Both the position numbers and the translations under genes were made by a program. This document shows, piece by piece, positions 3,978 through 47,355 of a DNA stretch of 64,000 nt (positions are counted from its first letter, which is position 1; each line of letters starts with the position of its first letter). The notes beneath the pieces were generated by a model. It was not told the origin of the DNA and did no database searches. It saw only the letters and a program-made list of their open reading frames with translations. Where the stretch lies: contig NZ_LMRF01000006.1 in assembly GCF_001424755.1 (NCBI RefSeq), forward strand, positions 475,862-539,861. Reading direction: 5' to 3'. The DNA is from Marmoricola sp. Leaf446. Its GTDB lineage: Bacteria > Actinomycetota > Actinomycetes > Propionibacteriales > Nocardioidaceae.

Positions 3978-4130
3978 TCAGGAGTGATCGCGTCCCTTGC
4001 CGAAGGCCGCCAGCGCGAGCACCAGGGCCAGGAGCAGGACCAGCGTGCCCCCACCGATGAGGTAGGGGCCGAACCCGGGGCCCTCGCCCTCGGCCGCGTT
4101 GAGCGGCAGCATCATCAGCACGTCGATCAT
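3978..4130 (-). CDS. Small single-span membrane protein (hypothetical, 50 aa)
   Basis: A 50-residue frame from ATG 4130. After a short acidic/Gly-rich N-terminus ([16 protein letters not shown]) comes one strong hydrophobic helix, [16 protein letters not shown], and a basic tail GKGRDHS. It lies 20 bp upstream of nadD and just downstream of the 4157-4615 gene on the same strand, so it may be co-transcribed. I recognise no family. Real coding status is plausible but not certain for so short a frame. Confidence 0.5.
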
Positions 4131-4156
4131 GGGCGTCAGCCTAGCCGCAGGCCAGG

Positions 4157-4615
4157 TCAGTGGAAGAGCAGGCCCACGCCCAGCAGCCAGGCCCAGAAGA
4201 ACAGCGTGCGGCCGACCAGGCCGGTGACGAAGAAGACCACGACGTTCATGCGCAGCGTGCCCGCGAGCACCGCCATCACGAAGAACGGTGGGAACCCGGC
4301 GGCGGCCGAGACGAAGTTGAGGGCGCCGCTGACCACGGGGCGACCCTCCACGGTGCGCTGCCAGCGGGCCAGCTGGGCCTGCCGCTTGGGGCTCTGCATC
4401 CGCTTGCGCATGAACGGCACCCCGACGGCGCTGCGCGAGCCGTAGTACCACGCGAGCTTGCCGATGTTCTGACCCAGCGAGGCCACCGCCGCCAGCAGCA
4501 GCGCGTTGCGGTCGTTGTTCGTGGCGTACGCGACGGAGATGTAGGCCTCCATGTTGAAGATCGGGATGCTCGAGGAGACGATCCCGAACCCGAAGGTCAG
4601 CAGCAGCAGCTTCAC
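4157..4615 (-). CDS. Small multi-span membrane protein, possibly VTT/DedA-like
   Basis: 152 residues, largely hydrophobic, with about four predicted spans. The segment [21 protein letters not shown] resembles the G-x(2)-GK-x-YY-GR stretch of VTT/SNARE-associated (DedA) proteins, which act as lipid or undecaprenyl-phosphate flippases. The rest is too divergent for me to assign with confidence. The ATG at 4615 overlaps the proA stop by ATGA, so it is translationally coupled to proline synthesis. The C-terminus ends in a hydrophobic helix with only LLFH after it. Confidence 0.65.
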
Positions 4616-5859
4616 CGGGTGTGGCCGTCACCCGTCACGACGTACTTGGTGGAGGTCATCTCCGGCAGGCCCATCGGACCACGGGCGTGCAGCTTCTGGG
4701 TGGAGATGCCGATCTCGGCGCCGAACCCGAACTCGCCACCGTCGGTGAAGCGCGTGGAGGCGTTGACCAGCACCGCGGCGGAGTCGACCGCGGCGGTGAA
4801 CCGCTGCGCCGCGGCCGCGGAGTCGGTGACGATCGCGTCGGAGTGGCCCGAGGAGTGGCGACGGATGTGCTCCAGCGCCGCGTCGAGGTCGGGCACGACG
4901 GCCGCGGAGATCTCCAGGGCGAGGTACTCCGTGCCCCAGTCGGCCTCCGTCGCCGGCACCACGCCGTCGACGGCGGCGAAGGTCGCGTCGCCGTGCACCA
5001 GCACGCCGGCCTGCTGCAGCCGGGCGGTGATGCGCGGCACGAACTCCGCGGCGACCGCCTCGGCCACCAGCAGCGACTCGGCGGCGTTGCACACCGAGGT
5101 GCGGTGGGTCTTGGCGTTGAGCACGATCCGCTCGGCCATGTCGAGGTCGGCGGCCGCGTCGACGTAGACGTGGCAGTTGCCGACCCCGGTCTCGATCACC
5201 GGCACCGTCGACTCCTCCACCACCGAGGCGATCAGGCCGGCACCCCCGCGCGGGATCAGCACGTCGACCAGGCCGCGCGCCCGCATCAGCTCCTTGACGG
5301 CGTCGTGGCCCTCCCCCGGCACCAGCTGCACCACGTCGGCGGGAAGGCCGGACGCGGCGGCGGCCCGCTGCAGCGAGGCCACGATCGCGGTGTTGGAGCT
5401 CAGCGCGCTCGAGGAGCCCCGCAGCAGCACGGCGTTGCCGCTCTTGAGGCAGATGCCGGCGGCGTCGGCGGTGACGTTGGGTCGCGCCTCGTAGATGATG
5501 CCGACCACGCCGAACGGCACCCGCACCTGTCGCAGCTGCAGCCCGTTGGCCAGGGTCGAGCCCCGCACCACCTCGCCCACGGGGTCCGGCAGGCCGGCGA
5601 CGTCGCGCAGCCCCTGGGCCATCGCCGCCAGGCGCGGGCCGTCCAGCCGCAACCGGTCGACGACGTTCTCCGCCGTACCCGCCGACCGAGCACGCTCGAC
5701 GTCCTCGGCGTTGGCGGCGAGGATCACCGCCTCGTCGTCGAGGAGGGTGGCCGCCATCGCCTCGAGGGCGGCGTCCTTGGCCGCCCGGGTGGCCAGGGCC
5801 AGGGTGGACGCGGCGGTCCGGGCCCGTCCGGCCACCTCGGCGAACACGGTGGTGGGCAT
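4612..5859 (-). CDS. proA: Gamma-glutamyl phosphate reductase (glutamate-5-semialdehyde dehydrogenase)
   Basis: 415 residues, normal for ProA. It reduces glutamyl-5-phosphate with NADPH to glutamate semialdehyde, step 2 of proline synthesis. Motifs: [39 protein letters not shown] and the catalytic Cys in [16 protein letters not shown] 5859 is chosen because the family N-terminus begins here and a TACGCT box ends 6 nt upstream. It is separated from proB by a 105-residue gene, so proBA is not a contiguous pair. Confidence 0.95.
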
Positions 5860-43873: not shown

Positions 43874-44521
43874 TCACTTGCCGCGGGCCGGGCGGCCCTC
43901 GTCGGCCGCCTCGCGCGCGCTGCTGATGACGTGGTCGATGAAGCCGTAGTCCTTGGCCTGGCTGGCGGTGAACCAGCGGTCGCGGTCGGAGTCGCGCTCG
44001 ATCTGCTCCAGGGTCTGGCCGGTGTGCTCGGCGATCAGCTCCTGCATCACCTTCTTGATGTGCAGCGACTGCTCGGCCTGGATCCGGATGTCGGAGGCGG
44101 AGCCGCCCATGCCGCCCGAGGGCTGGTGCATCATGATGCGCGCGTGGGGCAGGGAGTAGCGCTTGCCGGCCGTGCCGGCGCAGAGCAGGAACTGGCCCAT
44201 CGAGGCCGCGAGGCCCATGGCCACGGTCGCGACGTCGTTGGGGATGTAGTTCATGGTGTCGTAGATCGCCATGCCGGAGTCCACCGAGCCGCCCGGGCTG
44301 TTGATGTGGAGGAAGATGTCGGCCTCGGGGTCCTCCGCGCTCAGCAGCAGCAGCTGCGCACAGATCGCGTTGGCGTTCTGGTCGCGCACCTCGGAGCCGA
44401 GGAAGACGATGCGCTCGCGGAGCAGGCGCTGGTAGATGTGGTCGTCGAGGCCGTAGGAGCCCCCGCCGTTCATCTGCGGTGCGACCCGGTCGGGCCGGTC
44501 GGACGTGGAGTTCTCAGTCAC
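43874..44521 (-). CDS. clpP1: ATP-dependent Clp protease proteolytic subunit 1
   Basis: 215 residues from GTG 44521. This start is preferred over ATG 44557 because a TAGGGT -10 box ends 7 nt before it. ClpP motifs: [18 protein letters not shown], nucleophile in [12 protein letters not shown], catalytic His in [10 protein letters not shown]. The N-terminal ~30 residues are probably a processed propeptide. Heads clpP1-clpP2-clpX. Confidence 0.96.
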
Positions 44522-44528
44522 GGGACCG

Positions 44529-44534
44529 ACCCTA
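44529..44534 (-). promoter_or_regulatory. Putative -10 box of a leaderless clpP1P2 promoter
   Basis: TAGGGT on the minus strand, 7 nt before GTG 44521. No ClgR-type palindrome was noticed next to it. Confidence 0.4.
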
Positions 44535-44588
44535 GACGGCCGCTCCGACAATTCCACGGGCCCACCCCCCGTGTTCGCCCACAGCGGA

Positions 44589-45815
44589 TCAGACGGGCGC
44601 CTCGTCGCGCGTCGGGGGGTCGGTGCGGTCGCGCAGCCAGCCCTTGATCGCGGCGTACACGTCGTCGTGGTTGAGCAGGTCGAAGTGCCCGCCGCGGATG
44701 TGCAGCGTCTCGGCCCCCGGGAACATCTCCGGACCTCGACGCGGCCGGCCCAGCGCCGAGGCGTAGGGCACGAGCATGTCGCCCAGCGAGCCGGCCGAGA
44801 CCGACCGCGGCGAGCTCGACAGGGTCGCTGCCACGAGGCGGTAGCGCGCCCTCGGGAGGTTCTGCACGTCGCGGGCCAGGCCGTGACGCAGGTCCAGGAT
44901 GCCCACCGAGCGGTACTCCAAGATCCGTCCGAAGGGCGCGGACTCCGGCAGCCGCCCGAGCGCCGCGACGCCGCGGTCCACGACCCGTTCGAGCGGCGCG
45001 CCGAGGTGGGGGGTGCCCAGGCAGACCACGTCGGTGACGAGGTCGGTCCACGGGGTGTCCCGGTCGGTCGTCACGGCGCAGGCGGCACGCAGGATCAGGC
45101 CGCCCATCGAGTGGCCCACCAGCGCCAGCCGGCGCACGTCGGTCGGCCAGCACTCCACGAGCCGGTCGAGCAGCGCCGCCATGGCGACGCCGTTCTCGGC
45201 CACCGGGAGCCCGGTGTTGACCCGGACGAAGACCGGGGTCCAGCCGTCCTCGGTCCGCAGCCGCTCGCCGTAGCTGGTCGCGGCCGCGGGCCGGTCGTCC
45301 TGCCGGGGCCGTGCCTCGCGGTTCCAGAACGCCTCGTTCTCGCACAGGCCGTGCACGAAGACCACGACCCTCTCACCCGCGTCTGGGAAGGCGGCGGCCA
45401 CGCCGGCCTCGTCCAGGACGACGTCGTGGTGGCCCACGCGGACGCCCATGTCGAAGGCGAAGGGATGGGCCTGCTCGGTCAGCCGGTCGCCGATCAGCCC
45501 GTTGACCGCCGAGGTCAGGAAGCGGCCGTGGGGCGTGTCCTCCAGCCGGCCCCCGACGCCGGTGCGACCGACCTGCGTCAGGCCGCGGGCGCCGGCCTTG
45601 AGCCCGAGGCTGAGGCCGCCGTAGACGCACCGGGCGATGCCGTCGTGGACCCGGTGGGAGACCGTCGGCCCCCCGCCGTTGAGCTTGTCGTTGAGCCCGT
45701 GGATGCGCCCGGCGATCGCGCCGTGCACGTCCCGGACGGTGCCGAGGAGGAGGTCCTCCGCGTAGTGGGCCGCCAACGCGGCCGCGTCCAGGTTGTTCGC
45801 CTCTGCCTGCTTCAC
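44589..45815 (-). CDS. Alpha/beta hydrolase, lipase/PGAP1-like
   Basis: 408 residues from GTG 45815. It lies downstream of the tig terminator; the longer frame to 45950 would run through that terminator and into tig. The C-terminal hydrolase domain has oxyanion motif [15 protein letters not shown], nucleophile elbow [14 protein letters not shown], acid about [13 protein letters not shown] onward and a terminal His in [15 protein letters not shown]. The N-terminal ~150 residues are helical, of unknown role. Likely an esterase or lipase. The start codon abuts a 16-bp palindrome, and there is no Shine-Dalgarno. Confidence 0.8.
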
Positions 45816-45816
45816 A

Positions 45817-45832
45817 GTGAACAAGTGTTCAC
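45817..45832. promoter_or_regulatory. Palindromic operator GTGAACAAGTGTTCAC
   Basis: Two perfect 7-bp arms with a 2-bp spacer, ending one base from the GTG start of the hydrolase and just before the tig terminator stem. It has the look of a TetR/GntR-type operator. The GAAC-N4-GTTC core is also shared with LexA boxes, although the flanks differ from the mycobacterial consensus. Confidence 0.6.
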
Positions 45833-45834
45833 CG

Positions 45835-45868
45835 AAAAGCGGGGCCAGGTCAACGACCCGGCCCCGCT
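45835..45868 (-). terminator. Rho-independent terminator of tig
   Basis: Perfect 9-bp stem (AGCGGGGCC and GGCCCCGCT at 45838-45846 and 45860-45868) with a 13-nt loop, followed on the minus strand by TTTT, 20 bp after the tig stop. Confidence 0.8.
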
Positions 45869-45888: not shown

Positions 45889-47355
45889 TCAGGCCTTGGC
45901 GGCGTCGCCCTCGGCGTCCGTCGCGGGCTCGTCCGAGGCGCCGTCGGCACCTTCCTCGGCGGTGTCCGTCGCGGCCTCGTCGGCGGGCGCCTCGGCGGAC
46001 TCGGTCTCCTCGGCAGCGGGCTCGCCCAGGCTGCCGTCGGGACGGAGGTTCTTCAGGTCGACGGGGTTGCCGGACTCGTCGGTGACGGTCGCGGACTCCA
46101 CGATGCTGGCCAGCGCCTTGCCGCGGACGACCTCGGAGACCATCTCGGGCACGTGGTTGTGCTCGAGCATGTGCTTGATGAACTCCTCGGGGTTCTGGCC
46201 CGACTGCTGCGCGCGGCGCATCAGGTGGGCCTGCAGCTCCTCCTGCTCGACGCCGATCTCCTGGCTCTTGGCGATCTCGTCGAGCAGGAACTGCGACGCG
46301 ACGGCGTCGCGCACCCGCTTCTCCAGCTCGGCCTCGAACTCGTCGATGGTCTGCTCCTCGGAGTCGAGGTAGGCCTCCATCGTCATGCCCGCGTAGGCCA
46401 GCTGCTGCTCGATCTCCTGGCGACGGGCGGCGAGCTCCTCGGTGACCAGGGCCTCCGGGAGCGGCACCTCGGCGCCGTCGAGCAGCTGCTCGAGCACCGC
46501 GTCGCGCGCGGCGGCGGCCTGCTCGAGGCGCTTGCCGCGCTCGAGGCGGGTGCTGACGTCGGCGCGCAGCTCCTCGACGGTGTCGAACTCCGAGGCGGTC
46601 TGGGCGAAGTCGTCGTCGAGCTCGGGGAGCTCCTGCTCCTTGACGGCGGAGACCTTGACGGTCACCGAGACGTCCTGGCCGGCGAGGTCGCCGCCCACGA
46701 GCTGGGAGGTGAAGGTCGCCTCCTCGCCGGCGGACAGGCCGCGCAGCGCGTCGTCGATGCCCTCGAGCATGTCGCCCGAGCCCACCTTGTAGGAGTAGTC
46801 GGAGACCTGACCGCCCTCGATGGCCTCGCCGTCGGGGGCGGTGGCCTCGAGGTCGATGGTGACCAGGTCGCCGTCGGCGGCCGCGCGCTCGACGTCCTTG
46901 AGGGTGGCGAAGCGCTCGCGCAGCGCCTCGACCTGCTCCTGGACGTCCTCGTCGCTCACGGCCAGGTCGTCGACCTGCACGCTGAGGCCGTCGTACGACG
47001 GGAGCTCGATGCTCGGCCGCACGTCGACCTCGGCGGTGAACTCGAAGAGCGTGTTGTCCTCGAGCCGGGTCACGTCGATCTCGGGCTGGGCCAGGGGCTG
47101 GAGGTCGTTCTCCTGCAGCGCCTGCACGTAGAGCTGGGGCAGGGCGTCGTTGATCGCCTGGTCGAGGACGGCGCCGCGCCCGACCTGGCGGTCGATCACC
47201 GGCGGCGGCACCTTGCCCTTGCGGAAGCCGGGGATGTTCACCTGCTTGGCGATGGACTGGTAGGCCGCGTCGAGGCTCGGCTTGAGCTCCTCGAAGGGCA
47301 CCTCGACGGTGATCTTGGCCCGGGTCGGGCTCAGCGTCTCGACGGCGCTCTTCAC
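45889..47355 (-). CDS. tig: Trigger factor (ribosome-associated chaperone, PPIase)
   Basis: 488 residues from GTG 47355 with GAGGAG 8 nt upstream. N-terminal ribosome-binding domain with the signature FRKGKVPPPVIDRQVG (GFRKGK), then a FKBP-like PPIase domain (about 160-245; ADGDLVTIDLEATAPDG, GDMLEGIDDALRGLSAGEEA) and the helical C-terminal arms. It ends in an acidic Ala/Glu/Asp-rich tail of about 60 residues. The start is only 40 bp after tRNA-Pro with no visible promoter between, suggesting read-through from the tRNA promoter. Confidence 0.96.
   Translation of the reverse strand: MKSAVETLSPTRAKITVEVPFEELKPSLDAAYQSIAKQVNIPGFRKGKVPPPVIDRQVGRGAVLDQAINDALPQLYVQALQENDLQPLAQPEIDVTRLEDNTLFEFTAEVDVRPSIELPSYDGLSVQVDDLAVSDEDVQEQVEALRERFATLKDVERAAADGDLVTIDLEATAPDGEAIEGGQVSDYSYKVGSGDMLEGIDDALRGLSAGEEATFTSQLVGGDLAGQDVSVTVKVSAVKEQELPELDDDFAQTASEFDTVEELRADVSTRLERGKRLEQAAAARDAVLEQLLDGAEVPLPEALVTEELAARRQEIEQQLAYAGMTMEAYLDSEEQTIDEFEAELEKRVRDAVASQFLLDEIAKSQEIGVEQEELQAHLMRRAQQSGQNPEEFIKHMLEHNHVPEMVSEVVRGKALASIVESATVTDESGNPVDLKNLRPDGSLGEPAAEETESAEAPADEAATDTAEEGADGASDEPATDAEGDAAKA

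Follow-up and report, generated by a model that had tools for sequence, protein, structure and literature searches.

The closest described systems are those of DesT, a TetR-family repressor of desBC in Pseudomonas aeruginosa, and FabR of E. coli. In the excerpted text of PMC4273635, the desT gene is divergent from a desaturase gene (desB–desT), the E. coli FabR site is given as AGCGTACACGTGTTCGCT and AGCTTACAGCTGTACGCT is proposed as the FabR site of Shewanella oneidensis; excerpts of PMC3462791 place FabR over the −10 element of E. coli fabA. In mycobacteria, MadR is described in the excerpts of PMC8872791 as an acyl-CoA-responsive TetR regulator of desA1/desA2 with a predicted structure near that of DesT.

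Here we analyse a 64,000-nucleotide stretch of DNA from Marmoricola sp. Leaf446 (the window), in which a predicted site of this build lies between tig and a gene for an alpha/beta hydrolase, and we propose that a TetR protein encoded elsewhere in the genome, P0002, binds it. DesT is the closest solved relative of P0002, and the gene for P0002 is likewise divergent from desaturase genes; in contrast to the DesT system, the sites here include an alpha/beta hydrolase beside tig. The predicted operator shares the 18-bp build of the FabR site, and the pattern AG[C/T]GnACRnnYGTnC[G/A]CT spans both the excerpted E. coli site and a tally of 48 sites described below, although T and A occupy positions 3 and 16 here, where E. 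coli has C and G. As an actinobacterial TetR regulator of desaturases MadR is similar, but the motif reported in the excerpts of PMC8872791, TCTGTGxxxxxxxGT, is unlike the window palindrome, and in this comparison, by motif and not by protein, we rejected a MadR-type motif since the sequences differ. Among the literature matches listed, none beyond the MadR and FabR/DesT papers described a FabR/DesT regulon from actinobacteria or one that includes a lipase, and a term search of a Nocardioides simplex transcriptome paper (PMC7807495) returned no mention of desaturase or FabR. The type of regulator is known; the putative target and the layout are new, the target being undescribed as far as literature searches show.

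A predicted operator between tig and a lipase-like gene

The original prediction described a palindrome with perfect 7-bp arms one base from a GTG start. It lies at 45817–45832 (GTGAACAAGTGTTCAC), has a 2-bp centre and is separated by the single base 45816 from the hydrolase start codon on the minus strand (Table 1). By shape alone the palindrome is ordinary and within chance expectation: the window holds 16 perfect 7-2-7 repeats, compared with a mean of 17.65 (range 12–23) in 20 mononucleotide shuffles. The whole case therefore rests on its sequence. The predicted operator matches AGTGnACN4GTnCACT with one mismatch, and the window copy of GTGAACN4GTTCAC is the sole occurrence in the 3.81-Mb genome.

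A tig terminator stem had been placed 6 bp away on the other side, and a hairpin does begin at that distance (minimum free energy −31.9 kcal/mol, z −6.8). Its identity as a terminator is likely but not certain, because the T tail is short and a mechanical terminator scan of the window did not include this hairpin among its calls.

The putative controlled gene encodes a protein of 408 aa that scores over the Pfam cut-offs for the PGAP1 and DUF676 models. It carries a GxSxG nucleophile motif, and GHSMGG and HFDLL were invariant in the 5 sequences aligned. Searches found no solved-structure relative at E 0.01 and no matching NCBIfam family; the fold model was poor (mean pLDDT 51.6) and was left out of the argument. 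The product would be a lipase-like enzyme with a putative lipid substrate.

Table 1 Features of the window and of related loci
Feature	Position	Strand	Basis
ClpP-like gene, downstream of hydrolase	43874..44557	−	ORF; named from own sequence
Alpha/beta hydrolase, PGAP1/DUF676-like, GHSMGG motif; putative controlled gene	44589..45815	−	Pfam and alignment
GTG start codon of hydrolase; probable 5′ end of leaderless mRNA	45813..45815	−	sequence
Predicted FabR/DesT-type operator, 18 bp, GGTGAACACTTGTTCACT on gene strand	45816..45833	−	predicted
−10 candidate AACACT, inside palindrome	45824..45829	−	inferred
Probable tig terminator hairpin, then short T tract CTTTTC	45839..45867	−	folding
−35 candidate TTGACC, in loop and 3′ arm of post-tig hairpin	45848..45853	−	inferred
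tig (trigger factor), upstream gene	45889..47355	−	ORF, start trimmed by eye; named from own sequence
Second palindromes at desaturase promoters	L053:4512-4529, L160:2817-2834, L161:2306-2323, L162:2518-2535, L166:2654-2671, L167:2521-2538, L168:2447-2464, L171:2751-2768		
Loci with GGCGTCAC-like element	L044, L046, L047, L048, L055, L158, L160		

The predicted operator overlaps a candidate promoter

On the gene strand, the −35 candidate TTGACC is followed by 18 bases, the −10 candidate AACACT, 8 bases and the GTG codon. AACACT is a poor −10, and a promoter scan found no sigma-70 consensus. G018, which lacks both the palindrome and the TetR gene, keeps TTGACA-N18-AACACT-N7-ATG. This suggests a role as promoter element for AACACT and as regulator site for the remainder of the palindrome. 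The junction CACTGTG is kept in 7 own-clade genomes (G000, G001, G002, G008, G009, G013 and G014). The hydrolase mRNA is probably leaderless from the GTG at 45815, and an in-frame TTG (45824–45822) could serve as the start codon instead. Leaderless initiation is common in actinobacteria, and short or absent leaders are consistent with it. Of the earlier remark that an ordinary −10 and a leader seem not to fit before the gene, the part on the leader apparently stands; the part on the −10 does not, as a candidate lies inside the palindrome.

Promoter-like elements also adjoin the palindrome elsewhere. TAnnnT is found 4–9 bases after it in genus g6, with the start codon 4–8 bases further, in 20 of 23 palindrome-bearing genomes, and CATAGTTTC stands directly 5′ of it at 11 of 19 first-reductase-type promoters. 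TTGAC recurs within the post-tig hairpin, either in the loop or in the 3′ arm, in the window and at L007, L014, L015 and L018; overlap of the tig terminator with the −35 of the next promoter seems to be kept.

A FabR/DesT-like TetR protein and sites at desaturase operons

The genome contains two exact copies of AGTGnACN4GTnCACT, at C1:593871 and C1:1318869, both just upstream of a gene pair encoding a flavin/2Fe-2S (ferredoxin) reductase and then a fatty-acid desaturase; the desaturase of the second operon was located by tblastn and genome search. The site at C1:593871 adjoins the TetR gene encoding P0002 (C1:593028–593759), which is divergent from the first reductase/desaturase operon. At L044, the site (4872–4889) lies between the TetR gene (4029–4760, minus strand) and the reductase and desaturase genes (plus strand). 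The original prediction had read the palindrome as the operator of a repressor acting at initiation and had proposed a search for the same palindrome beside a TetR gene; with the looser motif this search was positive, and the recurrence supports the TetR-operator reading.

P0002 contains the TetR DNA-binding domain PF00440 (32.7 bits; cut-off 24). In the libraries searched, its closest solved TetR protein was DesT (3lsj; E 1.1e-29), with the next at 9.9e-7. Its best NCBIfam model was PRK11202 FabR, at 131.4 bits and so under the curated cut-off of 151, a difference from FabR proper for which we call P0002 FabR/DesT-like and not FabR.

Across 24 genomes of the genus we counted 36 exact sites, compared with 11 for the control pattern (five of them in one genome). 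Reductase/desaturase operons accounted for 22 of the 36 and the hydrolase for 12, with 2 others. A genome search allowing two mismatches was swamped by chance (35 sites versus 97 for the control), and weaker sites were not callable.

The site is conserved at the hydrolase and tracks the TetR gene

Of the 24 genomes of the genus, 22 carry the hydrolase, as do 106 of the 149 genomes of the family. Upstream DNA was read for 104 of these 106 (in G032 and G080 the gene start lies off the contig), taking the best match to AGTGnACN4GTnCACT within 300 bp upstream plus 20 (420 upstream in G096). We found the motif at two or fewer mismatches in 48 of 104 genomes and the reversed control in 1 of 104. Matches were exact in 27 genomes, with one mismatch in 16 and two in 5; the bearers comprised 19 of the 22 genomes of the same genus and 23 of the 24 of genus g6, with 6 more from g13, g20 and g23. 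The 48 sites tally to TSAGTGnACRnnYGTnCACTSA, in which positions outside the search pattern are also conserved (R8 and Y11 each in 48/48, T−1 in 38/48, and the flanking S). We conclude that the palindrome is beyond chance by sequence, because relatives retain the looser motif and GTGAACN4GTTCAC is unique in the genome. The original prediction had allowed that the palindrome might prove unique and not conserved, which does not hold, given the motif copies elsewhere in the genome and in relatives.

We compared the presence of the site with that of the TetR gene across family genomes. An exact site occurred somewhere in the genome in 68 of 106 genomes with the TetR gene and 2 of 43 without (p 4e-12), compared with 28/106 and 7/43 for the control pattern (p 0.21), and the palindrome was present at the hydrolase in 48 of 93 TetR-bearing and 0 of 11 TetR-less genomes (p 8e-4); as the genomes are related and the tests ignore shared ancestry, the p values overstate independence. 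The hydrolase association was stronger when first counted on 71 genomes (48/63 versus 0/8) than on 104. Nested absences of both site and TetR gene are clear in two cases, one in each of the two well-sampled genera: G018 in g1 (palindrome in 19/21 genomes with the TetR gene, 0/1 without) and G130 in g6 (23/23 and 0/1). In eight of the eleven TetR-less genomes, some of which are incomplete (G072 and G063 77%, G148 83%), all candidates were rescored and gave TetR matches only at E 3e-8 or weaker. The hydrolase site was absent from 45 of the 93 TetR-bearing genomes, namely two genus members (G003 and G015) and 43 genomes of g8, g14, g17, g19, g21 and g26, genera that showed no hydrolase site and whose TetR is mostly 43–50% identical to P0002.

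Proposed control of a lipid-remodelling regulon

We consider it highly probable that the palindrome serves as operator for a TetR protein of FabR/DesT-like type that blocks the hydrolase promoter and co-regulates the lipase-like enzyme with desaturases. The repressor would be P0002, encoded divergently from an operon bearing the same site. A bound dimer would cover the −10 and the start point, with the −35 lying in the post-tig hairpin, and hydrolase transcription would be blocked. By analogy with DesT and FabR, the repressor may respond to the acyl-CoA pool, and on derepression the lipase-like enzyme would rise together with the two desaturase operons.

With moderate confidence we extend this to one joint claim: that a FabR/DesT-like sensor in Nocardioidaceae joins desaturases and a lipase-type hydrolase in a single lipid-remodelling regulon, and that terminator, −35, operator, −10 and leaderless start are nested within about 55 bp. 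If this is true, low unsaturated acyl-CoA would trigger the release of acyl chains from existing lipids as well as their desaturation. An uncharacterised hydrolase beside tig would thereby gain a regulatory context, membrane lipid desaturation, within a regulon that can be tested at three promoters of one genome. The results also suggest FabR/DesT-type control of actinobacterial desaturase operons through a defined operator, and a compact layout in which the 3′ hairpin of one gene holds the −35 of the next and the operator holds its −10.

The same protein might instead work by a mode other than promoter occlusion: it could be a roadblock that stops read-through from tig, form a loop or act as an activator. 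In six genus members (G005, G007, G011, G012, G016 and G017) the palindrome lies 86–120 nt upstream of the aligned coding region and precedes a second, terminator-like hairpin, and for so distant a palindrome simple occlusion is hard to see. The promoter overlap elsewhere, at the own-clade −10, in g6 and beside CATAGTTTC, argues against such modes, which we regard as unlikely. Activation in particular typically involves a fixed spacing, and because the position of the palindrome near the promoter varies, a blocking repressor fits better.

Alternatively, the palindrome could work as RNA without any DNA-binding protein, either as another hairpin or within the tig terminator. Its RNA folds (−7.3 kcal/mol), G019, G020 and G006 have extended arms and a T-rich tail after tig, and positions 5/14 pair slightly above expectation (22 versus 16.3, p 0.045). 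However, desaturase promoters far from tig carry this motif too, its genome-wide occurrence follows that of the TetR gene, and covariation is lacking at 8/11 (29 pairs, 31.1 expected), 0/19, −1/20 and 1/18. Because the half-sites vary independently at 8/11, a dimer site fits better than an RNA hairpin; this and the recurrence at other promoters make the RNA reading very improbable.

The GAAC-N4-GTTC core had also raised the prospect of a LexA (SOS) box that makes the hydrolase DNA-damage inducible. That core is present, but the DNA upstream of lexA in the same genome carries CGAACACGCGTTCG and TTCGAACAGGTGTTTGAA, that is, CGAAC...GTTCG, whereas T/A replaces C/G beside the core of the window site, which does not match CGAAC-N4-GTTCG. 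Position 5, moreover, is A in only 17 of the 48 homologous sites (C in 22, T in 5, G in 4), and the other bases would break the LexA core. Exact TCGAACN4GTTCGA occurs 6 times in the genome (control 0), and the 6 proteins scanned beside these sites included no SOS family. From the mismatch to the genome's own lexA box and the variable position 5 we rejected a LexA identity, which is extremely improbable. A chance palindrome, for which its unexceptional shape would speak, is refuted by conservation at the same gene and can be given practically no weight.

Further elements related to the predicted operator

Besides the desaturases of the two operons, the genome encodes two paralogues (G000:C2:353262-354338 and C5:51104-52150, by tblastn), on contigs where the genome search found no exact site. 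G013 has the motif ahead of a 61-aa ORF that gave no Pfam match (L050:5070-5087). In G004 it precedes a gene for a secreted class 2 lipase-like protein (L054:4920-4937), a second link to lipases. At eight loci (Table 1), a second palindrome with 1–2 mismatches is found on the side of the TetR gene, its start 76–77 bp from that of the desaturase-promoter site; autoregulation of the TetR gene, with a fixed spacing of the sites, is probable. At first-type reductase promoters, an element resembling GGCGTCAC recurs some 12 bp 5′ of the TTGACC −35 and is possibly an activator site.
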